Shown: piece by piece, positions 6,045 to 64,000 of the stretch
Layout: each line of letters starts with the position of its first letter
Numbering within the stretch: position 1 is the first letter of the stretch
Assembly: GCA_034620365.1 (NCBI GenBank)
Contig: JAQGEQ010000081.1
Location: 1-64,000, forward strand
Reading direction: 5' to 3'
DNA: 64,000 bases
Source of the DNA: Pegea sp. RAD2-039
Taxonomy: Eukaryota; Chordata; Thaliacea; Salpida; Salpidae
Position numbers and translations under genes: made by a program
The notes under the pieces: generated by a model
Told to the model about the DNA's origin: nothing
The model's database searches: none
The model's input: only the letters and a program-made list of their open reading frames with translations

Positions 6045-6099
6045 TCAATGTAAATCTTGAGCTCATGATACCTCAAATGTAAATATTAAGTAGAAGTTT

Positions 6100-9490: not shown

Positions 9491-9499
9491 ATTTTTAAT

Positions 9500-13470: not shown

Positions 13471-13479
13471 AAAAGCTTA

Positions 13480-15740: not shown

Positions 15741-15892
15741 TTAGCATTTCAATCAAATATTTTTTTACATACAAATTTACTAAAGATGTTTTTTTTTTTA
15801 ATATAAATCAAAAACTTTAATTCAATATTAAATAATAATACAAATAAATAAAAAAAAATTATTTTTAAATGTTTGTTTTCATGACTTTTACT

Positions 15893-16090
15893 TTTTTCTG
15901 TTTCAACCCACATATTTGAGACTAAAACAACCTTATATATAAGGTTAGTTTTACTAGTTGACAGGACATTGAAGTTTCCCATCTTCCGTCTAAAATTTTG
16001 AGACTGATATATTCAGTTGTCTTTAACAAAAATAGAGTCACACAAAGACTAATAATAATAAAAATAAAGATGATAATGATTTGTTTCGTA
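15893..16090 (+). repeat. Interspersed module A (CACATATTTGAGACTAAAAC type)
   Basis: One of many copies of a module reading TTTCTGTTT-AACCCACAAA-TATGAGACTAAAACAGG-CTTATTTATAAGG, followed by GAAACTGATA-TTCAGTTGAATT. Others start near 1,080, 26,830, 31,340, 43,080, 45,700, 48,870 and 49,960. 15,973-16,090 also matches 37,555-37,680, directly after minisatellite array 3. Confidence 0.75.
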
Positions 16091-16094
16091 AAAT

Positions 16095-17290
16095 ACTTGT
16101 GGTATTTTTGACTGTTTAACTGACAATGGTATTATTGACAAATAAATTAAATCTCATTATTGTATTCCATTTCAAAAATATAGAATTTTAATTTTGATTA
16201 TAGTTTCAAAAACAAATTAATAATATCATTGCGCTTGTCATGAACAACTTCTATTACTAATGATTTGCGTCAATTTTTTTCGATTAATTATGTCTATTAT
16301 TAAAAACAAATATTTGTTTAGAACTCAAGCGAAAACAATTTTACGAAATATATTGTTTACTTTAAAGTGTACCTTTTGTAGATAGTTCAACAAATACACT
16401 ATAAATGAGATATTAAAACACTTTTCATTTTTGCTAGTAAAAACTATAATCCAGAAATTGAAAATAAAGAATTCTTGTTCTTCAATCATCAATCAAATAT
16501 ATATTTTATTTTGATATTAAGTGAAAGAAAAATTACAATTAAAAACATATATTTTCTGCTTTTAGTAAAATCAATTTTTCTTTGTGTTAACCCTATAAAT
16601 TTTGTACTGAAATAAGTCAACATAACAATTTTAACCAAACAAGTTGTTTGTCCTTGGCTTAGTTTAATTTATTATATTTCTAACATTTTATTCAAACAAT
16701 TTATTTGTAATTCACAACATCCGCCAGCTGTCGCTGTTGGCACCTTAGTTACCTTTTTTTTATTTAGTTTTTTTTCAGAAAAATCAAAAAATTTGCTTGC
16801 TGTTATTCAACTTCAAATTAACCCAAGATGAAGCCCTTGAGCCTGGGTTTACCTATGAGTCCAAACATAAAATAGTTTATCATAACATATTTTCTTCGGA
16901 CAAAACTGAGTTTTTTAGTAATACTATGTAGAGAGCTCAATGCCCTTGGCTAATTTCAATGCTTGTTTTACATACTAACTTTTCTAAGACATAGATTTGT
17001 GTTGAGTAGGTTTATATCTAAAATTTTAAATGTTGAAAATTTTACACATGCTGTGAGTCGAAAATTATTTTAATCGTTTTATTTTATCAAAACATAGCAG
17101 TAATTAGTTTAAGGGCTTATGATGAATGATTTTCCTTACACATGTTTGTTAACAGCAAAACAAGCAGGTTTGGTTTTTGTATTTTTAAATTTAATATAAT
17201 TTGTTTCTCAAAATACAAGTAAACATTTTTAAGCATTAACAATTGCTATCTGTTGCTGTTGATAGTTCACTGAAACATTTTTATTTTTGC
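16095..17290 (+). repeat. Interspersed module D, copy at 16-17 kb
   Basis: Diverged copy with the core ACATCCGCCAGCTGTCGCTG near 16,718 and the second core near 17,237. Between them is an unusually open stretch (16,776-16,931) containing ALEPGFTYESKHKI. It is absent or disrupted in the other copies and I cannot identify it. Confidence 0.7.
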
Positions 17291-17945: not shown

Positions 17946-18492
17946 AAGGCAGCAACAACCACTAGTAGTCAGTAAAAGCCATTAGAAACCCGCAACAACC
18001 ACTAGCAACCAGCAACTACCACTAGCAACCAGCAACAACCATTAATAACCAGCAACAACCAATAGCAACCAGCAACAACCATTACCAACCAGCAACAACC
18101 ACTTTGGAGCAGCAACAACCACTTCAAAGCAGCAGCAACCCCTTGCAGCCGGCAACAACCATTAGAAACCAGCAACAACCACTAGCACCCAGCAACAACC
18201 AATACCACCGAGCAACGAACACTAGCAACCAGCAGCAACCACTAGCAGCCTGCAACAACCAATAGCACCAAGCAACAACCAATACCATCAAGCAACAAAC
18301 AATACCACCCAGCAACAACCAACTGGCAGCCAGCAACAACTAATACCACCCAGCACCAACCATTAGAAACCAGCAGCAAATATTACCAACCAGCAACAAC
18401 CACTTCAAAGCAGCAACAACCACTTGCAGCCAGCAAGAACCACTAATAACCAGCAAAAACCATTAGAAACCAGCAACAACCACTAGCACCAA
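17946..18492 (+). repeat. 20-bp minisatellite, array 1 (about 27 units)
   Basis: Units follow AGCAACAACCAnTAnCAnCC with recurring variants (ACTAGCAACC, AATACCACCC, ACTTCAAAGC, ACTTGCAGCC, ATTAGAAACC). It ends one base before the left inverted arm. The 71-codon minus-strand frame across it is rich in Leu, Cys and Trp because a 20-bp period reads through three units. I do not regard it as a gene. Confidence 0.95.
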
Positions 18493-18493
18493 G

Positions 18494-18690
18494 ACGTCAT
18501 CAGAAGACTAGTAGCAGTAGATGATGTCAGAGTGTTTGTGTATGCAGATGATATCAAGCTATTATGTTGCAATTCTTCAAAACTTCAAACTGCACTACAC
18601 ACTGTAGAAAACTGATCTATGAATTGGCAGCTCAGAATCCAGCCACAAAGTCTTGTGAAGACGAGAATTTGTGAATGAAGTGAAGGAAAT
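18494..18690 (+). mobile_element. Non-LTR retrotransposon reverse transcriptase fragment, left
   Basis: Counterpart of the RT fragment at 63,400-63,599, beginning mid-gene with GRLVAVDDVRVFVYADDIKL-like sequence and running on to LQTALHTVEN, a TGA in place of tryptophan, then SMNWQLRIQ. It abuts the minisatellite at its left end, so the upstream RT was lost or never copied. The left copy keeps LQTALHTVEN, which the right copy has partly deleted. Confidence 0.88.
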
Positions 18691-18699
18691 CACTTCATC

Positions 18700-20284
18700 T
18701 TTATTGATCAACTCACATTTGAAATAATTCCTTTTTAATCTCAGTCTACAAAAACTCATATGAATGAAGTAAATATTAACTATCAACCCTAATCATCAGT
18801 TAATTCTAATCAACAAATGTTAATTAACCAATATGTCCATGCTGATTGTCGTGAAAACTATTTGTGTAATACATAAACACTACTAGTAGTAGAGAATTAT
18901 GAAAAAATCTTAATCAAATTAATTAGATACTAAATAACTTATCGATTAATACTTTATATCATAAATGAAATGGAAATTATGCAATTATTCTGTTTAATTT
19001 TAATATTTGATTCAGATGTTTTGAGATCGCCAATTTATAAAATTGAGTTTTTACTGAGTTTTTGTAGAACTAATTTACAAACAAACAAAACAGTTTAGAA
19101 TCAAATAAACTCATTAAAAGTCTCAACTCTTCTGTCTCTTTTCTATCTTCACTGATTAAGGTACGCTCGATTAAATTTCTTGTGTCTATTTCTTTTTCCA
19201 AACCAACTTTCTTTTATTCATAAATAGATTAACAACTTTCTCTGTATAAATTTTATAGTACTTTGTGTATATTGTGATTATGATTTATTATTTATTGGCA
19301 TAGTTATTTAACTATTTAATTAGATGTTGTTACTAAAAACGTTTATTTTAAATATAAGATGTATATTTCTGATTAAAGATTCTTCATTTCTTTCTTTTAA
19401 TTTGATGCTTTTTTTATCTGTAGAGTTCATGATCATTAAATTCATTTTAATTTGTAGTTTTGTTTTTGTATTATTTACAAATTAAAATTACTGAACCGTG
19501 ACTACGTGTTTTTACTATCAGCAATTATGACGACATTAATTTGGCAATCATTTGTATAATATTAGAAAGTTAGTTGAAACCAAATACGTATTTGTTAGCA
19601 AGTTAATGAAAACGTCTAAATGTGTTTCAATGACTTCATGCTTTATTTTTTATTTGATTTAAGATTATTTACGACTTTTATAAAATAAACACCTTGGATC
19701 ATCACAAAAAATAAGGTAAAGCTCGAAATAGATCTCAAAAAAGATATTATATTTCTTAATCTAATAAGCTTTCAATTAGACTAAATTAATTGTAAATGGA
19801 TCAAGCGAAAAGTTATTACTTTCTAAAATTAAAGAATTTTCACCAAATTGTCTTTTTTTTTCGTTTTCCAGTATTGTTTTTATTTAGTTATTTAAATAGT
19901 AGTAATCAGGTTGAATAGAAACAGGATAAACCTTCTTACATAAGTTTAATTTGCCTTGCGTTTACAGTCGAGTAGTTTTTCAAACTAGTTAAAATTGAAA
20001 GTTGTTTACCGTTTTTAAACCAGCATATTCTTTTTAAATATAAAGTAGCATTTATTAAGCTTTTTATTTAATTGATATAAATTATAATTTCTATAAAGTT
20101 TGTTTTCAAAAATATTGTCATTAATTATAAGCTCTGATAAAATCATCCGTAACTTTCTAATTGATCTCAAGAACAACTTCATTAACTGTCTTCAACAATA
20201 AATCACTACTCAAAATTCGACTTCTTAATCTTCTGTTGCAGCGTCGATTTTATAAAAAAATGTTATTTCATCTATTTATTTAAA
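18700..20284. other. Gene-free arm sequence downstream of cullin-3, left copy
   Basis: Shared with 61,796-63,390 in the right arm. It includes a hairpin AATGAAGTGA-aggaaa-TCACTTCATC near 18,675-18,700, just after the LINE remnant. A short frame next to the cullin stop (SSDLLLKTVNEVV, near 20,170-20,210 on the minus strand) is open in both arms but unidentified. Confidence 0.5.
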
Positions 20285-22403
20285 TTACAAAGAAAAATCC
20301 TTTATTCCGGAGTTGTCGGTGATGTGACGCTTAAAGTCCTCGTTGGTTGTGATGGAGAATTTCATGTTATTCAACATACTTTCGAGTTTGCTGGTGAACT
20401 GGCATCCACATTCAGTCTGAAATTCGATGACGTCTCGCGATTGATGACGTAGTTGATAAAAAAAGTAAACAAACCTTCAATTTGGCGATCATGTTTTTCT
20501 CAGAGTCATCTGAGATACTTTTGTTGGTGAGAAGACGTCTACTGAGATGCTGTTTGTAGTAGCGCTCAAAAACATATTTTTCTTGCAGAAAGCGAAATAG
20601 CAACATCGACTTTTCCAGGACGCATTCAACGTCTTGTTCAGATAACTAGAAAGATCGGAATGATTATGAGGGCACCGGGTTGTTTTAAACTAACCATTTT
20701 ATTTCCTTTCTTCAGTTTATCATCAATAAACAACGAGAGGTACTCTGGTGACTTCGGGTTGAGATTAACAAACCATTCAAAGTCACCCCCGATCATCTTC
20801 TTAAAGATATTATCATTTTTGAATGATTTAGTCAAAAAGTCATCCATACGATCTTTGAGGTTCAGCAAGCTCTACAAGGTTGAAAGTTAAAAGGTTAGAT
20901 GATAAATAGAAAGAAGTACCTGGATGTAATCCACTGCAAACTTTTGACTACAATCTTCAACAAGAGCTTTTCCCTGCTCTCGAAGGTACACACTCACACA
21001 ATCCTTCAAAGTCAAAAGACCTTCAGGAACTCTTTCAAACAACTTGTACATACGAAGAAGATCTGTAAACAAACACCAGTTTTATATTTAACTTATGTGG
21101 TTGGAGAAATCCAACAAACCCTCTTTTTTATCATTCCTTAACATGTGAACAGCTCCAGAGTTTTCCATCTCAACTATGGTACGCATGTGCTTCTGGATCA
21201 GCTCGCTTTCAAGAACTGAATCAAAAAAACAAATTTGAAGCTGGTCGATGATGACGAGGGTGTCTAGGTACCAGATATAATAGCTGGTTCGCTCATTGGA
21301 TCAAGATAATAACGCGCTCTTTCGACTTCCTCTTCGATTCTAGCTTCAACTTTATTGATGTAGACAGAGGTGCTGTTTTCAGCTAACAATTTCTGGCTTT
21401 CGAACTACAAATGATAATTAAATTAGAAATGTTTATGATTCTTAAGAAGGATTTTTTACTCTATAAAATTCAGCCGACTGATGCAAAAAAGCGATCTCAA
21501 ATTGTTGCTCGTAAACGTCTCGGTTATTCAGCGATAAAGTCGTGAGCATCATGCAAGCGCTTCTGATAGAACCTCTGAAAGTAGAAGATGTTTCGAAAGA
21601 TGTTTAAAACACTCTAGAGTCATCTACCTGTCAACAACTTCCCCCTTTCGTTCGCGAGCTACGAGATCTAGAAGCACTTCTTCAAGATAACTTCCTATCT
21701 CCTTGTGGCGGATCACTTCATCTCGAAAGAGTTTTAATCCCAGATGATAAACATTATCAACGTTATTTTGAGACACATAAACTCGATCCTTTATGAAAAA
21801 TATGTGAGAAAATAAACATGTAGGTAAAGATACTGACCATAAGCGCCATGGTATATCTGATCTTTACCATGCAGGTTAGATGGTCTTCCCAAGCAGCGTT
21901 CAGTGTGGACAGGAAGTTGTTCTTCAGTGAAGCAATCACATCAACACTAACCTGAATTAAAAGGAGTTTTTTTCACTAAATAAATCTCTAAAAGTCATTT
22001 TAGACAAACAGAACCACCCAATTACACCCGATGTTCGATGACTGTCAGCTGGGACAGTGGCATCAACGTCCAGCTAGTGTCTGTCTAGGTTAGGACCTAA
22101 TAGGTGGCCAATTATTTAGAAAATATTTATAAGAAACATCTTTTGATGTGAGCTTTGCCAAATAAACTATAAAAATGATCGACCCAAATTCCAACAACCA
22201 ATCACCTTTAGACGAAGATGGTCAGTGACCACCTCTCTCAATCCATTGTACAACTTCTCGCCATGCTCATGAATAACCATCATGTACGCATTCCTAAAAA
22301 TTTCTTCAAATCTAAGACTACCCTCGTTTTTGTTTTGAATTTGTTGGATTGCTTTCTTGAGCAGATCCCAGTTGTTCAAGAAGTATCGGTCATCCACTGT
22401 CAT
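20285..22403 (-). pseudogene. CUL3: Cullin-3 N-terminal half, left copy, ten exons, no C-terminal domain
   Basis: Cullin-3 is the scaffold of CRL3 ubiquitin ligases; its N-terminal half binds BTB adaptors and its C-terminal half binds RBX1 and carries the NEDD8 site. Exons on the minus strand: 22403-22206, 21951-21838, 21788-21628, 21574-21460, 21404-21272, 21215-21120, 21062-20920, 20871-20695, 20645-20475, 20416-20285. All introns are GT-AG and all exons are open, giving 479 codons against about 768 in human CUL3. Recognisable stretches are [81 protein letters not shown] and [13 protein letters not shown]. The frame ends NSGIKDFSL then stop, where the family continues for roughly 270 residues. 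The human protein has a first coding exon before this ATG, and I found none here. The first ATG lies directly after a good acceptor, matching a conserved intron position. Relative to conserved residues this copy has FEEIFRN where the family has FEELYRN. Identity is certain; function is doubtful. Confidence 0.93.
22015..22115 (-). other. GC-richer insert in cullin-3 first intron, left copy, with hairpin
   Basis: Same insert as at 59,970-60,075 in inverted orientation, with the ACTGTC/GACAGT stem intact. It predates the inverted duplication. Confidence 0.4.
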
Positions 22404-24524
22404 CTAGAAAAAAAAATCAGATTTTATATTTTCATTTTCTTTGTATGAATTTTTTTTTATCAAATTAAAATAAAAAAATAGTGAATAAAAACAGAATTTT
22501 TGAGTATCAAAAATGTCATATCAACCAATAAGTTGATTTCCTTTTACATAAGCTGGCTAACTTAGACTGAAAGTTTATAACTGCTCAACTTATAAAAGCC
22601 TGAAAACTGAAGTTAGCACCTCATTTCTATTATAAATATTTTCACTCAACTTTGATAAAACGCATTTTGCAGAAATTTGTTGAAAAAAAAAATATAAAAA
22701 TGGGTTAAATATATTTGTAAAAAAAATTCTATCATAAAATAAGTAAAAAAACACAAGTTTCTGAAAATCACAAAATGTAATGATTTATATAATTATTAAT
22801 ATATAGATGAAAACCAAATGTTTGAATTATAAAACTAATTATAATTCCTACTCTAATATTTGCTAAAGCTTTAATAAAATCTCTATAAATGTAAAATTAA
22901 TTTAAAACTATAAGCATAGCAAGTTAACTTCAAATTACAAATAAAAAATCAACAGTATATTACTATCAACATTTTAGCAAAAAATGAAATTCTTTAATCC
23001 ACTATATTTAAACCAGTACAACAAAATTGATATCTAAAATGATAAAAATTTCTATCACTTTATTAGTGTCTGAATAGTTTGAATCTCGATGAAACATGTG
23101 GCTGCTTCGTGTGTTTGTTTCAAAGTATGTAGGTGTTTGTCTGCATAAACAAAGAAATCATGACGTCGTACATCGAAAGTAGAAGCGAGAAAAAACATCC
23201 TCTACAACCAGCCTCATAAACATGAAGCGATCGTGCCTAAGTCACGCGCAACACAATTGTTAAGATCATTTAAGCACGTTTAAACAATATTTTTAATATC
23301 TACAAAAAATTACTTTTAAGCTAAAAATGTATTCTTTTAGAAAGATACTAAAAAAAAACTTAAATTTTCTGGTGCTTTAAATAGTAAAACAAGAACAATA
23401 ATTAAAACATAACAAGTAAAAGCAGTAGCAGCCAAGTTTAGCTAACTACACTCTTTTTCAACAGCATTAAATATTCAAAAAGTTATTAAGTCTGTTATAA
23501 TCCAAAAGATACATAACCTTACATTCAGAAAACCTAGCACTGTACTATTGCTTAAACTATAGATCCCATATACTTAAAACAAAATGTTCTATTATTAAGT
23601 TAATCCTGTAGCAGGCTACAGATTTATCTAACAACTGAAAAAGAAACATAAATTTTTTATCTTGTCTTTAAACCACAAGGAGATAACATAAACACTTTTG
23701 CAATCAGAAAACTTAACTTTGCGCTTTTAGCTTAAGTAACGGATCTAGAAAAAGCTTACATGAAAGTTTTTGAATTTAAAATGTTGATCAAACCTAGTAA
23801 TACCTTGAAATTTAAATTAAATTTTAAAGCAGAAATGATTTTGTACGCAAAAAAGTTATGAAAATGAAATGAATTATTATTTTGAAAATGAATTTGAAAA
23901 AACCATTCTAAGTAATGGTAGCTGGACGAAATTTTAAAATGATTCAAAAAGCTGACATTACGACTGCAAAACATTTTTTCCTACTATTTACACAATAGAC
24001 TCATATAAATAAACAATATAAATCCTAAAAGTATTTTTACACAAAACTACCACTGAAGTATTTTGGTACTTATAAGATCATGAAATGATTCTGTCTTTTT
24101 AAAATTAATGAACGTCAAAAAGTACTTAAATACAAAAAAGCAAAAAAAAAAAACAATATATAAGAAAACAATCCAAATAACCATAAACAAAACTTCTGAA
24201 CGTAAGTATATACAATAAATAAATGTTTGCTTGCATTTAGCTTCTTCAAACTCACTTTTACAATTTATAAAGATATAAAGCTAGATAAATATGAACTTTT
24301 AACAATTAAACTAGATATTTAGCAACTATCAGTGGTAAACTTAACACCCTAACTCGAAGACAAAAAGTGAAAAATTTTGTTAGAATGGGAACGCCCAAAA
24401 TCAAAAGTTTGCTTTTGTAATTATGAAAAGTGAAATAATAATCAAGAAACGACTAACTCATTCAGTAAAAGCAGCAAATATTTAGAAAATCTCGGATAAT
24501 TACACTGCTTTAGATGTTATTCTT
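22404..24524. other. Cullin-3 upstream sequence in left arm, no further exon found
   Basis: About 2.1 kb shared with 57,562-59,680. Apart from the GC-richer block it is AT-rich. A 72-codon minus-strand frame (23,756-23,974, MFCSRNVSFLNHFK) is open in both arms, but its differences change amino acids freely and it resembles nothing known. Confidence 0.5.
23085..23270 (-). promoter_or_regulatory. GC-richer block upstream of cullin-3 left copy, possible promoter or 5' leader
   Basis: Inverted counterpart of the block at 58,815-59,015, with the same TGACGTCG site and the same CACGCGCAA stretch. A 28-codon open frame on the plus strand (starting MWLLRVFV) crosses it and is also open in the other arm, but it matches nothing I know and is probably chance. 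Confidence 0.3.
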
Positions 24525-24529
24525 AAATC

Positions 24530-48480: not shown

Positions 48481-50749
48481 TGATTTTAGCTAGTAAAAAT
48501 ATAATCTAAAAATTGATACCAACTTTAATTGGAAAATTAAAAAAGATTAATTTCATTATTTTTTGTTCTATGCTTTTCTGTATCTAATTTTAACTCTATT
48601 CAGACAAGCAATATTTGATTACATTAGTTTCTCTTTAACACATACATTCTTTTCAATTATTAATATTGCAAACAGATACCAATTTTCACTTATATAGTTT
48701 ACTAAAAAATTAATTTTCATTTATTTTTAAGTATAAATCGAAAACTACAATTCAACATCTAAAAAATAATATGGATGTATATTATTACATAATTATTATT
48801 ATTATTACTAATACTATTATTAATTTATTTTTGGTATTTTGTTTTTCTTTCATGAAGTTAATTTTTATTTGTTTTAACCCACAAACATGAGATTGAAACA
48901 GCTTTACTTATAAGGCAGGATTTTTTCAACTGACATTTCTTTTCACTCGATTTTTGAAAGGTGAATTTGGAAACTGATAACTTCAGTTGAATTAAAGTTA
49001 GCTTCTCATTGTTGATCACCAAATATCAACAATTTCGGTTTTTACTGGGAGTAGCATGACTTTTTTCTATTTGGAATACTAACTTCAGTATTTTACATAA
49101 AAGTCAGCTGACACATTTTTTTGAATTTAAAAATACAGATTTTTAACAGATTTTTGGTTTTTATTGGTTATCAATTATTATTAAAATTAATTAATTGTCA
49201 TTCTACTTTTGTATAGTAGTTTTTTTGCAGCTGAACCTTTTTAGTTTTTTTTTTTCAAAACTACTGTAAGAGGTTAATCAAGAAGAACTATTTATACAAA
49301 ACCATCCTGATGAAATTTACACAACTAGTCAATATAAAGTTCGATTTTTTGTTAAATTTAGCTTCTTATTTACATATAAGAAGCACTAGTCAGAAGTTAC
49401 CAAACTGTTATTGATTTATCAAAAGATATTTAACAGATTTATGAAAAATTGCTCAATAAGTTTTTTACATAAACAAGTTTATTTTTCTCAGAAATTTGTA
49501 ATTAGTTAAAATGATTATGAATAATTTAAATACATAGCTGTTGTTGTTCTGAAGTGCTGCAACATTTACTTATTAAAGTAAACATTATTTAAAGAAAAGT
49601 CAAACTAAGGAGAAATTTGTAATTAGTTAATTTTTGTTTTCTTTTGTAAAACAAATTAGTAGATTTTTTCAATTTATTGAAGTAAGTTGTTTATATTGCA
49701 AACAAAAAACAGAAACGCTACTTTCTATCAAAAACCGATAGAAACTACTATAAAAGATTATAATTCTAATAAAATGATTAAAATCAGTAAATAAACTGGA
49801 TAATGACATCTTACTATACTTTATACTACGTAACACATAAGATTTGTATTTATAATTAAAAATTTCAGATTTCTGTTTCATCAGTTTCTTAACAAATTTA
49901 AAAATAATTATCTTACTAAAAATAAAACATACTTTCGATTTATCGTAACTTTATTTTTTTCTGTTTTATCCCACAAATGTGAGACTAAAGCAGGCTTATT
50001 TATAAGATTATTTTTACAAGTTGAAAGAAAGGTTAATATGATTGAGTATTATGAGCAAATTTAGAAACTGAAACATTCAGTTGAATTAAAAGCATAATTT
50101 TTTAAAAGCATGTTAGTTTTGGTGAAATTCAAATTTCAGACCTTTAATTCATCAATTTCTTAACAAATTAAAAAACAAATTCTATTTGAAAATAAAATAC
50201 CATTTGGATTTATAATTTTGCTTGCTTTTCTGTTTTAGCACAATTAGCAAAAAAATGAGAAAGGTAATTTTAAACTAATCAAGATATTTTATTTTGTAGA
50301 AATACTTTTTTGATAACTCTAAACCTTTCTACTTGCTTTAAATTAATAATTTTTTAGTACATTTCATCTTAACTCAATAAATCTAGTAATAACTTCTTGT
50401 TTTATCTTATGTTTGTATTCTTTTATAGAAATTGCAATTTACTTTTAAGTATATTTGATTACAAAATATAATTCAAAATAACATTTGTTATAAAAACTGA
50501 AACTAACCAAAATCAAGCAATGAATAAGAAGCATACGTTTTAAAGTTTAGATCAGTTTCTAAGATAGACACCGATCATTTTCTCATTCAAGAAGTTGTAT
50601 AAGCCAAAACAGACAACAGTTATATCTGTCGATTTTCAACTAAATATTTTTCTTCCGTTAGGAAAAGATTTTGTTTATGAAACCCGAAAAGAAATTTGTA
50701 GAAACTTTATAATTTACTTTGAAAGTTGACTTTTGTTGATAATTTAACA

Positions 50750-51970
50750 AATCCGCTATATGTTAAAAACTTATTTGATTTTCGCTAGTAAGAAACATAA
50801 TCTAGAACTTGAAAACAATTTAAATTGGAAAATTCCGGACAAAATTATATTCATTTAATACTTTTTATGCTATGATTATCTGTGTAGAAAATTAACAATG
50901 AAATTTTATTCTAAGAAGCTGCTAAACTCAATCAGATATAATTTATATTTTAACGGTCAATAAAAGCAAAATAAAGATATTGAGATTGCATTATGAGTCG
51001 GCTGCTGTTTTAAACTTTTACGTTAAAAAGTCTTTATAAATGTTTGTAATTGATTAATATATGTCAACTTCTTTGAACAAAAGTAGATTTTTAAATTATT
51101 AAACTAAGTTAATTTCACTGAAAAAAAAAGAAAAAAAATGCCAATTTCGATTTAAAACCTCTAACAACTATGATAAAAGATTTTATCTTTAATAAAATCC
51201 TGAAATCCTGTATAAAATAAATAATGGTGTCTTTGTTGAATTTATTCTAAGGAATTAAGTTTTGTACAGTAAACAATAAGAAAGAAGTTTTTGACAAGCT
51301 TATTGTTTTTTTTAAAACATCTTAAAATTGTTTGAAATAAAAGTACTGTTTGCAAAAAAAAAGGCAAATAAATCTGCACATGTTAAAAACTCAATTGATT
51401 TTCGATGGTAAGAAACATTATTTATATTTTAAAAACAAGTTAGATTGGAAAATTGTTGACAAAATTATATTCATTAAATATTTTTTGTGCTATGATTATC
51501 TGCGTAGAAAATAAACCATCAAATTTTGTTCTAGAAAGTTGCTAAGCTCAATCAGATATAATTTATATTTTAATGGCCAATAAAGGCAAAATAAGGACCT
51601 GATACTGTGTTAATAGATGGCTGCTGTTCTAAATTATTACATTAAAAAGTTTTTATAAATGTTTGTTATTGATTAATATAAGTTAAAATTTTCGAACAAA
51701 AGTAGAATTTTTAAATTATCAAACTAAATTAATTACACTTCAAATAAAAATACTAATTTCGATTTAAAAGCTCTAAGAACTATGATAAAAGACTTTATCT
51801 TTAATAAAATCCTTAATTCCTGTAAAAATTATAAAATGGCGTTAATGTTTAATTTCTGCTAAGGAATAAAGTTTTGTACACTGAAAAATAAGAAAGAAGT
51901 TTTCGACATGCTTATTGTTTTGTTTAAAACATCTTAAAATTGTTTGACATAAAAGTACTGTTTGCAAAAA
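50750..51970 (+). repeat. Tandem pair of a 0.62-kb module, direct repeat copy 2
   Basis: Counterpart of 1,870-3,090 with the same two-unit structure, so the tandem duplication came first. Confidence 0.8.
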
Positions 51971-52277
51971 AACGCAACCTAGATAGCTAAATGGTTGTAA
52001 GGAAATTACAGAAACTTTTATAAGATTTGTTCTACAATGTTTAACTATTTATTATAACTTAAATTTACTTTTGTATATTATGAACAACTTTCTTTAAGTA
52101 TTATAATTCGTTGCAGCATTTCCTTATTTCGCCAACTTAATTTAGTTGAACGAAAAACATCTTAAATATACATTGTGTAAAATTGTGCGATTAAAAACTT
52201 TGATTATTTGCTTAAAATTAGATTTAAACTTTTGCAAAAAACCTGATTTTTGAAATCAAAGCGTTGACTAGAATATT

Positions 52278-52360
52278 AATGAAAAGCCATTCCAGTGTGG
52301 CATGTGTGGAAAACATTTTCTGAGAGGTCAACTGTCAAACGTCATGAAAAAACTCACTTT
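52278..52360 (+). pseudogene. Single C2H2 zinc finger remnant, copy 2
   Basis: Counterpart of 3,402-3,484 inside direct repeat copy 2, with identical frameshift and identical zinc-ligand codons. In the third, diverged relative of this module (near 42,840) the finger is deleted, leaving only flanking GAATATTA and AGAAAACATTTT strings. Confidence 0.85.
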
Positions 52361-52632
52361 ATTAAATCTGTTCAATAAATCATTTGCACAATTTTAATCA
52401 TAACACATCTATTTTGTCATGAAAGTACGTCTAAGAGTCAAACTTAATTAAAATTCTTCGTGAATAACTTTTCAAAAAATAAATATCATTATTCCTAAAA
52501 CGCCAATTTAAATAAACTTCTTAAAAAATTTTATTCAAATTATTTTTCAACGATTCTGAAGATTACTTTCTTTAAAGATATGTGGTTAGTTCCTTCACTT
52601 TTTGTTCCTGAATTTTTAAAAGAATTTTTAAA

Positions 52633-52677
52633 AATACTTTTAACAGCGTGATAGAGAAACAATTTTTGATCCTTAGG
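52633..52677 (+). mobile_element. Reverse-transcriptase-like trace, copy 2
   Basis: Duplicate of 3,757-3,801 with A-to-T and D-to-N changes (NTFNSVIEKQFLIL). It has lost the diagnostic AFD residues since duplication. Confidence 0.4.
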
Positions 52678-54807
52678 TTGTTCATTAGACTATGATAAGA
52701 TAAAATTTTACAAAGTAAGTAAGTTCACACAATACATTTTTGGTTAGTAATAGAGATACAAATAGAAGGCTAATATAAGATGATCCAATTTCTTTGATAT
52801 CAAATCTAAAATTTACCAGCCTCAATATGGAGCTCTACCTAAGTCAAGAAAGATAATTTTTGGAAAAATCAGAAAATTTGAAGAAACAAATGTTGAGTTA
52901 ACAGAAAAATTTCAAACCTTTTAATTCTATATTGTTAAAAGATACATTTTATAAACATTTTATTTAGTAAGTTTTTAAAATTGTAAAATTAAGTTCATTA
53001 ATTCATTAATTACTTAAAAATTTTATTAACGACTCTTAAAAATAATTTTCATTTTAAAAGTAAATTACATCTTTAATTTATCATTTAGTTTGTCTTACCA
53101 TTTTATCACAATTAGGAATATATATACAAAAGAATTTTAAATGAAGGAAATAATTTCACTTCTCTGTAATTAGAGTTGTCGGAAAACAAAAACTTAAAAT
53201 TATATCATGTATGACACTCATGGCAAACATAATTGACCGTCGTTCATCAAAGTAATTTGAGAAAATATATTGAGTTCGATTCTTTATACAACTGAATAAT
53301 TCAGTTTTCAAATTAAACAAGAATACTTAAACAAATATCAAAAATAGCGTTAGTATTCATAGGAAATTAAAATTGTTATATTAACTTTTTTCAATTTTGT
53401 GTTTGTGGGGTTAATACAAATAAAATTGAGTTTGCTAAAAGCCGAAAACATACTTTTCTAACTTTAATTTTTCTATTACTTATTATCAAAAAACAAAATT
53501 TTTTTAATTGATACTTACCAAGTTTTTTAAAGAAATTTTTTTCTAGGATTGTTTATAATTTTCTAATCGTGACTTCAAAAATCTTCCAAAATTTGGTAAA
53601 CTTATTTTTCAAATCATCGATTAAAATTTTTTCTAGCGAAAATCATACAATTACTCGTTTACATTTGATAAAGATTTGTTACTTCAAACTTTTACAGCAA
53701 CTAAAATAGATTTTATCAATAAATCGATAGATATTTTATTTTGATTGAATTATTTATTTGATATATCTGCGAACATAGAATCTTTTTAAAGAATAAATTT
53801 AATGTATAACCCTTTCTCCGGAAAAATTATGATTGATGATAACTCAAGGTACTTATAATTTTTCTTGTTTGTAAACCATTGAGTTCCAAATATTTTTTGC
53901 ATGACTAAAGACATGTTAGAAACAGTTTATAGAAAGAATTCCATAAAAATGCTTGAATTTATGTTTAAACTTTTAAAATAAGTATAAATTTTGTAGAATT
54001 TCTTTTAACTAAAAGTACAATTCTCTAATGGCTAGTGCCACATTTTCAAATCAAATTGTATTTAAGAAAAGGTTTTTTGTCTTGAAATGATTTCTCAGTT
54101 TAAGAAGTCAAATGAAAGATCATAAATTTAACGTAAGGTTAACAGCGACAACTAGCGACTGTTCAAGTTTACAAATAATTTGACAGAGGTTTATGAAACA
54201 AAATTTATTAAACTGATATGACAACAAACAATGAAAAGATAAAATAAAGTACCAACAGCGACAAATTGCGGATGTAATGATTTACAAATAACTTGTTTGA
54301 TTTTTAAGAAGCAAAATAAATTAAACTAAACCAAAAACAAACCAAAAACCAACTCATTTGGTTTTGTTATTAGCAAACCTTTCTATAGACAATCAAATCA
54401 GCCCTTTAAAAATTTGCTTATTATTTATGTTATAAATATTATATATTTTTTTTCTATTATTAGTGATTACAGGTGATATCTTAAGCAACGTTAAGTGTTT
54501 TATAGCTTGATATGTTTTGCTTATGTATCTACTTTCTATAGTTCTATTATTTATATAATCTTTAAGTTGAAACTTATTCAAATTCAAAATATTAATGAAC
54601 ATTTGGAAAACTTCAAAACTATCTTTTGCACCGCAATAATCATGTTATATCTTATTGCATTCTAATTAAATGTTTGTGGGTTGAAATTTTAAAATCCTTA
54701 CGTTTTACAAACTTTGATGAACTTTTAATTTTTAAAATTATTCAATTTGTGTTTGATTTTATTGTGTAAGATTTCGCAATTTGTGTTTTACTACTATCTT
54801 TCTAATT

Positions 54808-54903
54808 TTATGACCAACTTTGAATCACGTGACCAACTTTGAACCACGAGACCAACTTTGAACCACGAGACCAACTTTGAATCACGTGACCAACTTTGAA
54901 CCA
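54808..54903 (+). repeat. 19-bp tandem array with E-box palindrome (5 units), copy 2
   Basis: Duplicate of 5,949-6,044 within direct repeat copy 2, nearly identical. Confidence 0.9.
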
Positions 54904-57900
54904 ACCTCAAGGTAAATCTTGAGCTCATGATACCTCAAATGTAAATATTAAGTAGAAGTTTCTTTTTAAATAAAATTTACATTTTGATTAACGGCTACAT
55001 CTAAAGTATTGTCGATCAGAACAGTTATTCTGAAAAATCATTTCAAAACCAGAATATTTTTTTTAGTACAATTTATTATTAAACTGTGGCACTTAGCTCT
55101 TAGAGATTTGATTTTTGACTGTTTAACTGACATTGGTATCATTGAGATATAAATTATATCTTATTAATGTATTCCAATTCAAAAATATAGATTTATAATT
55201 TTCTTTAAGTATTAAAAACAAATTACTAATATCATTGTGTTTGTCATGAACAACTTCTGTTATTAATGATTTGCGTCAATTTTTTTTTTTTAACATAAGA
55301 AATAGTTTACAAGAAAACCGTTACTTTTTAGATCACTTTCTATGAATTATGCGATTCATTTCTCATTCAAGAAGCTAGATAAATCAAAATAGATAACAGC
55401 TATAAATGTCTACTTTTGATCAATTTTTTCCATTACTAAAAGCAAATTTTTGTGTTGAATTAGAACAAAAACAGTTTTACGAAATATATTTTTTACCTTT
55501 AAAGTGTACCTTTGGTAGATAATTCAACAAATGCACTATAAATGAGATATAAGAACATATTTGATTCTTGCTAGTAAAAACTATAATCAAAAAATTGAGA
55601 ATCAAGAATTTTTGTTCTTTAATCATCAATCAAATATATTTTTTATTTTGATATTAAGTGAAAGAAAAATTAAAGTTAAAAACATATATTTTCTGCTTTT
55701 AGCGAAATCAACTTTCATTTACCTTAACCCCATAAATATGATACTAAAATAAGTCAACAAAACAATTTTAAACAAACGAGTTGTTTGTGTTTGGCTTAGT
55801 GTAATTTATTTTATTTCTATAATATCAAACAAATTATTAGTAATTCACAACATCCGCCAGCTGTCGCTGTTGGCATTTTAATTTATCTTCTTCTTTATTC
55901 AATTTCTTATTCTGAAATATCAAAGTAAAAACAGACTAAAGTTGCTGCTTTACAGTTGCTGCTTACTTTTGTACTGACAATTGTTTTACTGACAAATGAA
56001 TTAAATCTTGTTAACAAATTACAATGCTAAATTTGCTAACATAAATCATGTATCAGATGATTTATTTAAACTAAAATTATTTAATTTCTCATCTTATCGT
56101 AAGTCTAGATGTTAAATTTAAAACAGTTTATTAAAGAAGTTAGCAAATTGTTACACCTTTTGCGTGCGGAAAATTATTTTAATCGCTACAATTTACATAG
56201 CAGCAAATCATCTACTAGCTTAAGTTGATTCGATTTTCTATACAAATGTTTGTTAACAACAAAACAAAACGAGTTGGTTGTTGTCATGTTAGTTTAATAA
56301 ATTTTGTTTAAAACTTCTGTCAAACTATTTGAGAACTTAAACAGTTGCTCGTTGTTGCTGTTGATCTTGCGTTAAATTAGCTATCCTTCATTTAACTTCT
56401 TATACTGGTAAGTCATTTTTAAACAGATTTAATTTTCCTAAATACAATTTGATAACAAACTGTTTCAATTAGAATAATTTAATAATGTATATAAAAGGAA
56501 TTAATAACATTATTTTGACTGTCTTCAACAGCGTCTGTCATTAATGATTTGTGTTCTTCAAAATTGTTTTAGATTTAAACAAAAGAAATGAAAATCAAGA
56601 GAAACTTTTATTGTTTACATCAGTTTGTATGATAAACAAATCATTTTCTCATCAAAGAAGCTATATAAGTCAAAATAGAAAAAAGTTCTATATGTCAATT
56701 TTCAACTAAATATTTTTTATTATTAGAAACAATTTTCACATTTAGCTGCTTATTTACATCTAAGAAAAACTAGTCAGAAGTTACCATACTGTTATTGATT
56801 TATCAAACAATATTTTAACAGCTTTAAGAAATATTGCTCAATCAATTTATTACATAAATAAGTTTCCATTCCAAAAGTTTGTAATTAGTTAATATTTGTT
56901 TACTTTTGTAAAACAAAAGAGTAGATTTCTTCACTTTATCGAAGTAAGTTGTTTATATTGCAAACCAAAACTAGAAACGCTACATTCTATTGAAAACCAA
57001 TGAAAACTACTATAAAAGATTTTATATCTAATAAAATGTAAATTTCAGCGTAAATAATGAATAATGACGTCTCGTTGAATTTTATAATATATAAACATGA
57101 ATTTTTTAATTATAATTATAAATTTAAGATTTTCTTTCATTTAATTTTTTTAAAAACGCAAAAATAATTTTTTTACTAGAAATCGAATACATTTTGGAAT
57201 AATAATTCTATTATATATTAAGCGCTTTTGATTTGAAATGTTGAAAATTGTTAACATGTTTAAACTATCAAAAACCGGATTTTCATCCTGTTAGCATTCT
57301 AAGAATGAGATTTAAATTACTTTAATTAGTAGAGAAAAGATTAAAATAGTTGGTTAACTTTTGTGCTTGTTTTATATATATTTGTCATTTATTCAAACTA
57401 CAGTTCATATTTTAATTTTTAAATCAGTTTACTGTTGTTTATGTATTAGTTGTAACTTCGAGTCAAAATATATCTAAAAATTTGTAAATAAAGATTAAAG
57501 TATAAGCTGATCTGTCTATTTACAATTTTCTCAAATTTAAAGTTTAAGAATATTCATCTAAAGAATAACATCTACAGCAGTGTAATCATCCGAAATTTTC
57601 TAAATATTTGCTGCTTTTACTGAATGAGTTAGTCGTTTCTTGATTATTATATCACTTTTCATAATTAAAAAAGCAAACTTTTGAGTTTGGGCGTTCCCAT
57701 TCTAACAAAATTTTTCACTTTTTGTCTTCGAGTTAGGATGTTAAGTTTACCACTGATAGTTGCTAAATATCTAGTTTAATTGTTAAAAGTTCATATTTAT
57801 CTAGCTTTATATCTTTATAAATTGTAAAAGTGAGTTTGAAGCAGCAAAATGCAAGCAAACATTTATTTATTGTATATACTTACGTTCAGAAGTTTTATTT

Positions 57901-58814
57901 ATGGTTATTTAGATTGTTTTCTTATATATTGTTTTTTTTTGCTTTTTTGTATTTAAGTACTTTTTGACGTTCATTAATTTTAAAAAGACAGAATTATTTC
58001 ATGATCTTATAAGTATCAAAATACTTCAGTGGTAGTTTTGTGTAAAAATACTTTTAAGATTTTTTTTTTGTTTATTTATATGAGTCTATTGTGTATATAG
58101 AAGGAAAAAATGTTTTGCAGTCGTAATGTCAGCTTTTTGAATCATTTTAAAATTGCTTCCAGCTGCCATTACTTAGAATGGTTTTTTCAAATTCATTTTC
58201 AAAATAATAATTCATTTCTTTTTCATAACTTTTTTGCGTACAAAATCATTTCTGCTTCAAAATTTAATTTAAATTTCAAGGTATTACTAGGTTTGATCAA
58301 CATTTTAAATTCAAAAACATTTCATGTAAGCTTTTTCTAGATCCGTTACTTAAGCTAAAAGCGCAAAGTTAAGTTTTCTGATTGCAAAAGTGTTTATGTT
58401 ATCTCCTTGTGGTTTAAAGACAAGATAAAAAATTTATGTTTCTTTTTCAGTTGTTAGATAAATCTGTAGCCTGCTACAGGATTAGCTTAATAATAGAACA
58501 TTTTGTTTTAAGTATATGGGATCTATAGTTTAAGCAATAGTACAGTGCTAGGTTTTCTGAATGTAAGGTTAAGTATCTTTTTGATTATAACAGACTAAAT
58601 AACTTTTTGAATACTTAATGCTGTTGAAAAAGAGTGTAGTTAGCTAAACTTGGCTGCTACTGCTTTTACTTGTTATGTTTTAATTATTGTTCTTGTTTTA
58701 TTATTTAAAGCACCAGAAAATTTAAGTTTTTATTTAGTATCTTTCTAAAAGAATACATTTTTAGCTTAAAAGTAATTTTTTGTGCATATTAAAAATATTG
58801 TTTAAACGTGCTTA

Positions 58815-59015
58815 AATGATCTTAACAATTGTTTTGCGCGTGACTGAGGCACGATCGCTTCATGTTTATGAGGCTGGTTGTAGAGGGTGTTTTTTCTCGC
58901 TTCTACTTTCGATGTACGACGTCATGATTTCTTTGTTTATGCAGACAAACACCTACATACTTTAAAACAAACACACGAAGCAGCCACATGTTTCATCGAG
59001 ATTCAAACTATTCAG
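58815..59015 (+). promoter_or_regulatory. GC-richer block upstream of cullin-3 right copy, possible promoter or 5' leader
   Basis: About 200 bases here are visibly richer in G+C than the flanks and are well conserved in the left arm (about 23,085-23,270). They include CGCGTGACTGAGGCACGATC and ACGACGTCATGA, a CRE-like TGACGTCA-type site. The block lies 0.7-0.9 kb before the first cullin exon seen. I could not find a convincing first coding exon (the human one ends MRIRAFP). This may be an ancestral promoter with a noncoding first exon. That role is inferred from position and composition only. Confidence 0.3.
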
Positions 59016-59680
59016 ACACTAATAAAGTGATAGAAATTTTTATCATTTTTGATATCAATTTTGTTGTACTGGTTTAAATAGAGTGGATTAAAGAATTTCA
59101 TTTTTTGCTAAAATGTTGATAGTAATATACTGTTGATTTTTTATTTGTAATTTAAAGTTAACTTGCTATGCTTATAGTTTTAAATTAATTTTACATTTAT
59201 AGAGATTTTATTAAAGCTTTATCAAATATTAGAGTAGGAATTATAATTAGTTTTATAATTCAAACATTTGGTTTTCATCTATATATTAATAATTATATAA
59301 ATCATTACATTTTGTGATTTTCAGAAACTTGTGTTTTTTTACTTATTTTATGATAAACTTTTTTTTACAAATATATTTAACCCATTTTTATATTTTTTTT
59401 TTCAACAAATTTCTGCAAAATGCGTTTTATCAAAGTTGAGTGAAAATATTTATAATAAAAATGAGGTGCTAACTTCAGTTTTCAGGCTTTTATAAGTTGA
59501 GCAGTTATAAACTTTCAGTCTAAGTTAGCCAGCTTATGTAAAAGGAAATCAACTTATTGGTTGATATGACATTTTTGATTCTCAAAAATTCTGTTTTTAT
59601 TCACTATCTTTTTATTTTAATTTGATAAAAAAATTTTCATACAAAGAAAATGAAAATATAAAATCTGATTTTTTTTCTAG

Positions 59681-61795
59681 ATGACAGTGGATGACCGATA
59701 CTTCTTGAACAACTGGGATCTGCTCAAAAAAGCAATCCAACAAATTCAAAACAAAAACGAGGGTAGTCTTAGATTTGAAGAACTTTATAGGAATGCCTAC
59801 ATGATGGTTATTCATGAGCATGGCGAGAAGTTGTACAATGGATTGAGAGAGGTGGTCACTGACCATCTTCGTCTAAAGGTGATTGGTTTTTGGAATTTGG
59901 GTCGATAATTTTTATAGTTTATTTGGCAAAGCTCACATCAAAAGATGTTTCTTATAAATATTTTCTAAATAAATGGCCACCTATTAGGTCCTAACCTAGA
60001 CAGACACTAGCTGGACGTTGATGCCACTGTCCCAGCTGACAGTCATCGAACATCGGGTGTAATGTGGTGGTTCTGTTTGTCTAAAATGACTTTTAGAGAT
60101 TTATTTAATGAAAAAAACTCCTTTTAATTCAGGTTAGTGTTGATGTGATTGCTTCACTGAAGAACAACTTCCTGTCCACACTGAACGCTGCTTGGGAAGA
60201 CCATCTAACCTGCATGGTAAAAATCAGACATACCATGGCGCATATGGTAAGTATCTTTACCTACATGTTGATCTTCTCACATCTTTTTCATAAAGGATCG
60301 GGTTTATGTGTCTCAAAATAACGTCGATAATGTTTATCATCTGGGATTAAAACTCTTTCGAGATGAAGTGATCCGCCCCAAGAAGATAGGAAGTTATCTT
60401 GAAGAAGTGCTTCTAGATCTCGTAGCTCGCGAACGAAAGGGGGAAGTTGTTGACAGGTAGATGACTCTAGAGTATTTAAAACATTTTTCTAAACATCTAC
60501 TTTCAGAGGTTCTATCAGAAGCGCTTGCATGATGCTCACGACTTTATCGCTGAATAACCGAGACGTTTACGAGCAACAATTTGAGATCGCTTTTTTGCAG
60601 CAGTCGGCTGAATTTTATAGAGTAAAAATCTTCCTTAAGAATCATAAACATTTCTAATTTAATTATCATTTGTAGTTGGAAAGCCAGAAATTGTTAGCTG
60701 AAAACAGCACCTCTGTCTACATCCATAAAGTTGAAGCTAGAATCGAAGAGGAAGTCGAAAGAGCGCGTCATTATCTTAATTCAATGAGCGAACCAGCTAT
60801 TATATCTGGTACCTAGACACCCTCGTCATCAACGACCAGCTTCAAATTTGTTTTTTTGATTCAGTTCTTGAAAGCGAGCTGATCCAGAAGCACATGCGTA
60901 CCATAGTTGAGATGGAAAACTCTGGAGCTGTTCACATGTTAAAGAATGATAAAAAAGAGGGTTTATTGGATTTCTCCAACCACATAAATTAAATATAAAA
61001 CTGGTGTTTGTTTACAGATCTTCTTCGTATGTACAAGTTGATTGAAAGAGTTCCTGAAGGTCTTTTGACTTTGAAGGATTGTGTGAGTGTGTACCTTCGA
61101 GAGCAGGGAAAAGCTCTTGTTGAAGATTGTGGTCAAAAGTCTGCAGTGGATTACATCCAGGTACTTCTTTCTATTTATCATCTAACCTTTTAACTTTCAA
61201 CCTTGTAGAGCTTGCTGAACCTCAAGGATCGTATGGATGACTTTCTGACTAAATCATTCAAAAATGATAATATCTTTAAGAAGATGATCAGGGGTGACTT
61301 TGAATGGTTTGTTAATCTCAACCCGAAGTCACAAGAGTACCTCTCGTTGTTTATTGATGATAAACTGAAGAAAGGAGATAAAATGGTTAGTTTAAAACAA
61401 CCCGGTGCCCTCATAATCATTCCGATCTTTCTAGTTATCTGAACAAGACGTTGAAAGCGTCCTGGAAAAGTCGATGTCGCTATTTCGCTTTCTGCAAGAA
61501 AAATATGTTTTTGAGCGCTACTACAAACAGCATCTCAGTAGACGTCTTCTCACCAACAAAAGTATCTCAGATGACTCTGAGAAAAACATGATCGCCAAAT
61601 TGAAGGTTTGTTTACTTTTTTTATCAACTACGTCATCAATCGCGAGACGTCATCGAATTTCAGACTGAATGTGGATGCCAGTTCACCAGCAAACTCGAAA
61701 GTATGTTCAATGACATGAAATTCTCCATCACAACCAACGAGGACTTTAAGCGTCACATCACCGACAACTCCGGAATACAGGATTTTTCTTTGTAA
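59681..61795 (+). pseudogene. CUL3: Cullin-3 N-terminal half, right copy, ten exons, no C-terminal domain
   Basis: Exons: 59681-59878, 60133-60246, 60296-60456, 60507-60621, 60676-60808, 60865-60960, 61018-61160, 61209-61385, 61435-61605, 61664-61795. Every exon is open, every intron is GT-AG, and introns are 48-58 nt except the first (254 nt). The model is 479 residues and ends NSGIQDFSL. It covers the BTB-binding cullin repeats and the start of the cullin homology domain, but not the RBX1-binding and neddylation regions. The final intron before [12 protein letters not shown] is kept, and the protein diverges from the family about 37 residues later. AATAAA follows the stop at once (61,799). 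Compared with the left copy I count 24 amino-acid-changing and 7 silent differences, close to what no selection would give. It keeps the family's FEELYRN but has SQEYLSLF where the left copy and family have SPEYLSLF. It could be transcribed, but I read it as a decaying duplicate. Confidence 0.93.
59970..60075 (+). other. GC-richer insert in cullin-3 first intron, right copy, with hairpin
   Basis: The first intron seen is 254 nt whereas the others are about 50 nt. The excess is a block of mixed composition with an inverted repeat ACTGTC-ccagct-GACAGT. It looks like a small transposon remnant inserted before the arms duplicated, since the left arm has the same block. The family is not recognised. 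Confidence 0.4.
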
Positions 61796-63390
61796 TTTAA
61801 ATAAATAGATGAAATAACATTTTTTTATAAAATCGACGCTGCAACAGAAGATTAAGAAGTCGAATTATGAGTAGTGATTTATTGTTGAAGACAGTTAATG
61901 AAGTTGTTCTAGAGATCAATTAGAAAGTTACGGATGATTTTATCAGAGTTTATAATTAATGACAATATTTTTGTAAACAAACTTCATAGAAATTATAATT
62001 TATATCAATTAAATAAAAAGCTTAATAAATGCTACTTTATATTTAAAAAGAATATGCTGGTTTAAAAACGGTAAACAACTTTCAATTTTAACTAGTTTGA
62101 AAAACTACTCGACTGTAAACGCAAGGCAAATTAAACTTATGTAAGGAAGTTTCATCAAGTTTCTATTCAACCTGATTACTACTATTTAAATAACTAAATA
62201 AAAACAATATTGGAAAACGAAAAAAAATGACAATTCGTTGAAAATTCTTTAATTTTAGAAATTAATAACTTTTCGCTTGATCCATTTACAATTAATTTAG
62301 TCTAATTGAAAGCTTATTAGATTAAGAGATATAATATCTTTTTTGAGATCTATTTCAATCTTTACCTTATTTTTTGTGATGATCCAAGGTGTTTATTCTA
62401 TAAAAGTCGTAAATATTCTTAAATCGAATTAAAAAATAAAGCATGAGGTCATTGAAACACATTTAGACGTTTTCATTAACTTGGAACATATAAGTTTTTG
62501 TTTTCAACTAACTTTCTAATATTATACAAATGTACAAATGATTGCCAAATTAATGACGTCATAATTGCTGATAGTAAAAGCACGTAGTCCCGGTTCAGTA
62601 ATTTTAATTTGTAAATAAAACCAAAACAAAACTAAAAATTAAATTGAATTTAATCATCATGAACTCTACAGATAAAAAAAGCATCAAATTAAAAGAAAGA
62701 AATGAAGAGTCTTTAATCAGATATATACATCTTATATTTAAAATAAACGTTTTTAGTAACAACATCTAATTAAATAGTTAAATAACTATGCCAATAAATA
62801 ATAAATCATAATCACAATATACACAAAGTACTATAAAATTTATACAGAGAAAGTTGTTAATCTATTTATGAATAAAAGAAAGTTGGTTTGGAAAAAGAGA
62901 TAGACACAAGAAATTTAATCGAGCGTACCTTAATCAGTGAAGATAGAAAAGAGACAGAAGAGTTGAGACTTTTAATGAGTTTATTTGATTCTAAACTGTT
63001 TTGTTTGTTTGTTTGTAAATTAGTTCTACAAAAACTCAGTAAAAACTCAATTTTATAAATTGGCGATCTCAAAACATCTGAACCAAATATTAAAATTAAA
63101 CAAAATAATTGCATAATTTCCATTTCATTTATGATATAAAGTTTTAATCGATAAGTTATTTAGTATCTAATTAATTTGATTAAGATTTTTTCATAATTCT
63201 CTACTACTAGTAGTGTTTATGTATTACACAAATAGTTTTCACGACAATCAGCATGGACATATTGGTTAATTAGCATTTGTTGATTAGAATTAACTGATGA
63301 TTAGGGTTGATAGTTAATATTTACTTCATTCATATGAGTTTTTGTAGACTGAGATTAAAAAGGAATTATTTCAAATGTAGTTGATCAATG
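61796..63390. other. Gene-free arm sequence downstream of cullin-3, right copy
   Basis: Counterpart of 18,700-20,284. It starts with AATAAA at 61,799, six bases after the end of the last sense codon. 61,867-61,923 encodes MSSDLLLKTVNEVVLEIN with an ATG here, where the left arm has TTG. The 85-codon minus-strand frame at 62,866-63,123 has no known match and is broken in the left arm. Confidence 0.5.
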
Positions 63391-63399
63391 AAGATGAAG

Positions 63400-63909
63400 T
63401 GATTTCCTTCACTTCATTCACAAATTCTCGTCTTCACAAGACTTTGTGGGCTGGATTCTGAGCTGCCAATTCATAGACCAGTTTTCCAAACTGTGCAGTT
63501 TAGTTTAAAGTTTTGAATAATTGCAACATAATAGCTTGATATCATCTGCATACACAAACACACTGACATCATCGATTGCTACCAGTCTTCCGATGAGGTC
63601 TTCAATGAAAATTAAAAAGAGAAGGAGGCCCAGAACAGAACCCTGAGGAACACCCCTAGTGATTTGACTAGAAGTAGATAAAGATCTTTCTACACGAGCT
63701 TGTTGGGTTCTAGCTGAAAAGTAATCTTCAATCCACTGTAAGATAAAGATATTGATTTTTAAGTTTTTCAATACAGTAACAAACTTAGTGTGTGAGACAG
63801 AATCAAACGCTTTTGCAAAATTGAGGTATATGAGGTCACAGGGAGTATTACTTTCGTAATGGGCTGTAAGCTCAAAAGTAAGAATTTTAAGATTAGTTTC
63901 GCTTGTCAT
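63400..63909 (-). mobile_element. Non-LTR retrotransposon reverse transcriptase fragment, right
   Basis: A 134-codon open frame (63,505-63,909) carries ordered RT blocks: LIYLNFAKAFDSVSH, then RGVPQGSVLGLLLFLIFIED, then VFVYADDIKLL with the YADD catalytic motif. This pattern is typical of CR1/Jockey-like LINEs; the usual GPLLF is GLLLF. Frame is lost just after KLL, but homology continues to about 63,400 with ENWSMNWQLRIQP in another frame. There is no upstream endonuclease or RT start before 63,909, so the element is truncated at both ends. The part to 63,599 is shared with the left arm. Confidence 0.9.
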
Positions 63910-64000
63910 AAATCATTTAAATAGGCACTAACTAAAGTTTCTTTTTTGTTTTGTTATAATTTGACAATAAACAATTGAAGTTTTAGTTAAGTATTGTGTA

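Follow-up and report, generated by a model that had tools for sequence, protein, structure and literature searches.

Ampliconic sex-chromosome palindromes, such as those of the mammalian Y and the Su(Ste)/PCKR repeats of the Drosophila Y, hold multicopy genes in an inverted architecture, with mosaic copies that suggest gene conversion (PMC6325706, PMC4772468, PMC3403216). A repeat block of the salp Pegea sp. RAD2-039, which we describe here starting from a window of 64,000 bp, the first 64 kb of the 649,741-bp contig JAQGEQ010000081.1 (C92), resembles them in these respects, with gene copies at 97-100% identity. In contrast to the sex-chromosome palindromes, the arms of the salp block are not mirror-colinear and the gene is a truncated cullin-3 (CUL3). 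The block reverses its polarity at an inverted join, J1, that lies in the window and again on a second contig, C134. We consider it likely that J1 is an old inverted fusion or inversion breakpoint within an ampliconic block that homologous exchange has since reshuffled. What stands out in one window as a 15-kb chimera can belong to a polarity reversal of the whole block, and it takes a whole-contig comparison to reveal such a feature.

Other known rearrangements resemble this locus in part. Fold-back inverted duplications are likewise joined in inverted orientation at a short microhomology; PMC3907307 gives spacers of 766-70,466 bp and microhomologies of 2-8 bp for them, and for comparison the candidate spacer here, from 8,691 to 24,524, would be 15.8 kb long. 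They differ in that their inverted proximal arm lies directly beyond a single-copy spacer, whereas here the inverted units (Z, Y and X below, to 72.9 kb) are followed by other repeats up to 84 kb. A single-event chimera of the microhomology-mediated break-induced replication or fork stalling and template switching (MMBIR/FoSTeS) type would have a join found at this locus alone, with its source pieces as the nearest sequences; here the join is also on C134, where the closest relative of the inverted piece lies. The copy-number-variable blocks of a monogonont rotifer, as characterized in the relevant passages of PMC8447722, are 143- and 154-bp satellites, unlike the present block.

Polarity reversal at an inverted join

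The assembly comprises 105.7 Mb in 387 contigs. The window is AT-rich (25% GC) and bears eukaryotic hallmarks, namely a reverse transcriptase of the long interspersed nuclear element (LINE) type and multi-exon cullin genes. It is the left end of C92 and belongs to an ampliconic repeat block found on C92, C134, C96 and C283; matches of at least 500 bp and at least 80% identity to 247.7 kb of block DNA outside the window (overlaps included) cover 95% of it. A first-pass annotation, made from the letters of the window, had read its right-hand 15 kb as a direct copy of the first 8.7 kb fused to an inverted copy of a 6-kb piece. Self-alignment of the window bears out both matches, each far beyond chance: positions 1-8,691 pair with 48,879-57,553 (98.2% over 8,693 columns), positions 18,491-24,524 pair with 63,602-57,561 (97.0% over 6,052 columns), and the two matched pieces adjoin at 57,553/57,561. 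The pieces concerned are as follows.

1..8691, plus strand: W, the 8.7-kb piece, left copy; begins at base 1 of C92
9888..13090, plus strand: block repeat X; inverted at C92:69,694-72,859, right of J1
14679..16095, plus strand: block repeat Y; inverted at C92:68,742-70,183
17950..18488, plus strand: tandem array of 26.9 copies of a 20-bp unit; interrupts the left 6-kb copy at 18,491
18491..24524, plus strand: Z, the 6-kb piece, left copy; one of 12 long copies
48879..55880, plus strand: right copy of W, the part about 99.2% identical to the left copy; right end approximate
55880..57553, plus strand: right copy of W, final 1.7 kb, of other ancestry
57553..57561: join J1, where the polarity of the block flips; C134 counterpart at C134:169,507-169,515
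57561..63602, minus strand: right copy of Z, inverted; sister copy at C134:163,464-169,507
63505..63912, minus strand: LINE-type reverse transcriptase fragment (Pfam RVT_1); crosses 63,602 without a break; its left-copy counterpart is cut at 18,491

The polarity of the block was tallied from hits of at least 500 bp on the four block contigs only, obtained with 11 of the 12 genome queries and sorted by strand. Left out were the query that spans J1, hits on other contigs (e.g. C203, C369, C370, C278, C58, C6 and C363) and hits shorter than 500 bp, some of which are opposite in sign and come from short inverted sub-repeats. The strand was as expected in 309 of 311 repeat hits; once overlaps were merged, 194 stretches agreed and 2 were contrary. 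On C92, all 22 hits left of J1 are plus and 166 of the 167 to its right are minus. On C134, plus hits make up 62 of the 63 below position 169,511, and all 31 above it are minus. The remaining two contigs are minus throughout (C96, 11 of 11; C283, 17 of 17). The flip coincides with J1 in both contigs, where hits of opposite sign end at most 8 bp apart; each contig has one polarity switch, with the short arm ending at a contig end. The order of the units right of J1 is likewise reversed, 24.5-18.5 kb being followed by 16.1-14.7 kb and then by 13.1-9.9 kb. A simple mirror palindrome about one centre was considered and rejected: pieces of the left arm find their best partners in the right arm at dispersed sites of C92, at 84-86, 162-166, 237-241, 292-306 and 585-591 kb. 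Hits of the block queries stop at about 28-31 kb on C96 and at about 50.5 kb on C283, with equal polarity on the two contigs, as would be the case if both edges of an inverted block were seen here, or a single edge in two allelic forms.

The second occurrence of the join carries much of the argument. A 611-bp query across J1 matched at full length in 2 of 28 places, the window itself and C134:169,208-169,818 (99%). Around J1 the two contigs are 94.6-100% identical per 500-bp bin (56,501-64,000), and their common sequence stops near C92 56,323 and 64,214, beyond which the outer flanks differ. Because the same join is present on C134, J1 is real and inherited, not a private misjoin; because the outer flanks part, the two joins are, on sequence grounds, not one piece assembled twice from the same reads. 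That the assembler misjoined repeats at 57,553/57,561, a possibility that the first-pass annotation had itself named as fatal to its reading, is very unlikely. Contigs do end within near-identical repeats, and several of the end tracts match internal copies at 100%, as such an artefact might have it. However, the join occurs twice, in copies that differ by 0-5% per 500-bp bin and have different outer flanks, and on both contigs it coincides with the polarity flip. A left-type copy of the 6-kb piece also lies to one and the same side of J1 on both contigs, 33 kb away on C92 and 59 kb away on C134, and for this reason we lean towards regarding C92 and C134 as alleles rather than paralogues.

At J1 itself we read a microhomology of 2-3 bp from the alignment letters. 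A 10-bp motif, TTTAAGAATA, lies near J1 on both sides; in AT-rich DNA such short matches are weak evidence. The usual continuations of the two joined units are found elsewhere in the block: that past 8,691 at C92:295,296-297,086 and C92:223,676-224,624, and that past 24,524 on C96, at the end of C134 and at C92:127,495-129,372.

The outer limits of the two matches do not have the standing of J1. Position 48,879 is not a breakpoint: homology there is truncated by the start of C92 and does not end; the position only mirrors the contig edge, because the left W copy starts at base 1 of C92. A 1,001-bp query from 48,300-49,300 has 52 matches in total, of which 10 outside its own locus, distributed over C92, C134 and C283, are of full length. 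Nor is the right copy of Z broken at its right limit (63,599 in the first-pass annotation, 63,602 here), where homology with the C96 copy continues to 65,016. The broken partner at this boundary is the left copy, cut by the 20-bp array that ends at 18,488, and this junction of array and 6-kb piece is shared by the copy at C92:604-610 kb and by the one that ends C134. At window 18,491 and at C92:221,310, differently flanked 6-kb copies break at the same base (+/-1), beside the palindrome GACGTC; the shared position is possibly a recurrent breakpoint.

Mosaic ancestry and a proposed origin of the join

The copies in the right-hand 15 kb appear to be of unequal age. A similar low divergence of about 1-2% had been attributed to both source pieces; measured by segment, divergence is 0.8% over 1-7,000, about 5% over 7,001-8,500 and about 3% in the 6-kb piece. 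Identity between the left and right copies of W is 98.2-100% per 500-bp bin up to 7,000 and then 94-96% up to 8,500. Over its final 1.7 kb the right W copy shows about 95% identity with both the left copy and the C134 copy, the last 675 bp are 97% identical to C92:296,496-297,170, and the stretch at 49.3-54.8 kb has a 98-99% relative at C92:585-591 kb. The Z piece has 12 copies of at least 4.9 kb, on C92, C134 and C96, and the pieces in the window are thus not two-copy sequences. In a tree of these 12 copies, the right Z copy pairs with C134:163,464-169,507 (98.9% identity, ultrafast bootstrap 100), while the 97.5% identity between the left and right window copies (without gaps) is the family background. 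Since the sister of the right Z lies on C134, the left and right copies are not source and copy. Given the identity step in W, the Z sister on C134 and the relative at C92:585-591 kb, the right-hand 15 kb seems to combine sequence of at least three different ages; the identity steps also suggest gene conversion within the block.

The left Z copy has its twin at the end of C134: the initial 6.0 kb are free of mismatches, identity per bin is 99.4-100% to about 26.9 kb and 91-97% thereafter. Two tracts extend to a contig end and match an internal copy at 100% for 5 kb or more, one at C134:227,106-234,909 (against window 18,222-26,024; identity falls to about 94% beyond 26.9 kb) and the other at C92:643,814-649,669 (against C92:187,081-192,685).

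The mechanism first proposed for the 15-kb chimera was a template switch or complex repair that copied and fused 1-8,691 and 24,524-18,494, in one recent event or in two close in time. Part of this proposal stands: the low-homology inverted join is real, its 2-3 bp of microhomology fit such a switch, and a simple tandem duplication is inadequate to account for it. A recent origin from the left-hand pieces in a single event is nevertheless highly improbable. J1 is also on C134, the right Z is closer to its C134 sister than to the left copy, identity between the W copies drops abruptly at about 7.0 kb, as in a mosaic, and the left limit of the presumed copy is a contig edge.

As to the kind of break, the order of events and the cause of homogenisation, we infer the following course. 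Long ago a double-strand break within an array of directional repeats would have been repaired by low-homology inverted joining, either as a fold-back (an inverted duplication) or as one breakpoint of a large inversion, both of which are compatible with J1, and the joining would have set the end of the 8.7-kb unit (8,691) against the end of the reversed 6-kb unit (24,524). The joined region would then have come to lie at two places, on C92 and C134, as alleles or through duplication. Later crossovers and gene conversion between the repeats would have rebuilt its surroundings, leaving the patchwork of ages seen in the right-hand 15 kb.

An ordinary large inversion in the array, without duplication, is a sub-case of this course of events, and one that we hold to be a serious possibility, if somewhat short of an even chance. 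J1 would then be one of two breakpoints, with the second in unassembled sequence. The order W|Z'Y'X' (primes marking inverted units) is the product of inverting W-X-Y-Z, and a single flip is seen per contig. On the other side, though not decisively, the hits show no second flip over the 592 kb that follow J1 on C92 or over 169 kb on the corresponding side of C134.

Several points weigh against an old fusion or inversion breakpoint with later reshuffling. A fold-back predicts an inverted 8.7-kb unit just past 72.9 kb, and there is none in the flank examined, to 84 kb, which holds other block repeats (of the 32.7-41.6-kb types) and the array. The unit may have been removed by later shuffling; with its flank prediction failed to 84 kb, fold-back as the sole mechanism was rejected. 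The shorter arm is assembled over only 57.6 kb on C92 and 65.4 kb on C134, and a second flip, as in an ordinary inversion, is therefore possible. The hits in the polarity tally are not independent, because the queries share families, and two of them have the wrong sign (C92:432,421-433,004 and C134:92,799-93,369, both short and 75% identical). The end tracts with 100% identity may reflect recent conversion or, as possible artefacts, an effect of assembly. Finally, the genome searches scored the best candidates only.

A truncated CUL3 gene in many copies

The block also carries an amplified, truncated cullin-3 gene that shows signs of selective constraint and lends itself to testing. CUL3 is the scaffold of BTB-CUL3-RBX1 ubiquitin ligases; according to the pertinent passages of PMC3401178, its N-terminus binds BTB adaptors and its C-terminus RBX1, and NEDD8 is attached to a C-terminal lysine. 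The truncated product differs from it by missing the C-terminal part, which is kept by a separate gene on contig C278. The two window copies are as follows.

20285..22403, minus strand: truncated CUL3, left copy; 10 exons, 479 residues
Exons of the left copy: 22206-22403, 21838-21951, 21628-21788, 21460-21574, 21272-21404, 21120-21215, 20920-21062, 20695-20871, 20475-20645, 20285-20416
59681..61795, plus strand: truncated CUL3, right copy; 10 exons, intact

In PDB 8h34 the human Cullin-3 chain, 768 residues long, aligns with the 479-residue product over its residues 23-492 (E 3.6e-198), and the Pfam Cullin profile covers product residues 12-472 with its positions 1-469 of 620. As judged from sequence, the product keeps the N-terminal cullin repeats, which in CUL3 bear the BTB-binding face. 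The C-terminal region for RBX1 binding and neddylation is lacking, the open reading frame (ORF) ending past the equivalent of Cullin-3 residue 492. All 12 block copies (10 distinct sequences, two copies being 100% twins of others) have the stop codon at the same place. Start, stop and frame are intact in 11 of the 12, the broken copy being that at C134:44 kb, and in 11 of the 12 all nine introns are GT-AG, with a single GC-AG intron in the copy at C92:604 kb. The CUL3 gene on C278 has both ends: it matches all ten exons, positions 513-620 of the Cullin profile and Cullin_Nedd8. Its C-terminal pieces have no match in 39 window and block sequences (351 kb with overlaps), against 14 matches for an N-terminal control piece. 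A second partial CUL3 family, 88-89% identical to the window copy, is found at C203:3,543 and 25,227, C369:15,796 and C370:1,753; both of its copies that were examined (C203 at 3.5 kb and C369) have a stop in exon 3.

The block copies differ from the C278 gene by 0.46-0.50 at synonymous sites (dS) and by 0.04-0.05 at nonsynonymous sites (dN), and the mean pairwise dN/dS among block copies is 0.55. Substitution rates in introns and flanks served as the neutral yardstick for the 10 distinct copies. Synonymous changes were as numerous as expected (31 against 31.7), amino-acid changes were fewer (67 against 94.2) and stop mutations were absent (0 against 8.0), in a set of copies that are related, perhaps converted, and include the broken one. 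With exon changes fixed at 98, 4.4% of 5,000 draws had amino-acid changes and stops together in numbers as low as observed, and 0.26% had stops in numbers as low as observed. Exon gaps were not counted as evidence, since flank gaps stem largely from partial copies. These counts point to weak constraint on the CUL3 copies after truncation.

N-terminal fragments of CUL3 are used as inhibitors in laboratories, and the truncated product is close to that kind. Text searches of the literature found no amplified truncated CUL3 genes described in the titles or abstracts listed. It is tempting, if decidedly tentative, to imagine that the block exists because selection has retained in it a shortened CUL3, in about a dozen copies, that would offer the adaptor-binding half without the RBX1/NEDD8 half. 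Such a product might be a natural partner of BTB-CUL3 ligases that titrates them or has a dominant-negative effect on them, and it might possibly take part in genomic conflict, in the manner of other truncated genes that have been amplified.

Other features of the window

Scans of the whole window for tRNA genes and Rfam families gave no match, as did a phage-DNA search limited to 18,400-24,600, and for bacterial-style genes the window holds no ORF of at least 150 amino acids. Nine of the 36 listed window ORFs and one further ORF were scanned for other genes, and only a sub-threshold match to Dynamin_N was obtained. This match, at 25,562-25,771 on the plus strand (E 0.0013, under the curated cut-off), is perhaps another gene fragment carried by the block. 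A 19-bp tandem repeat, TGACCAACTTTGAACCACG, occurs at three sites of the window, 5,949-6,041, 26,035-26,212 and 54,811-54,903.

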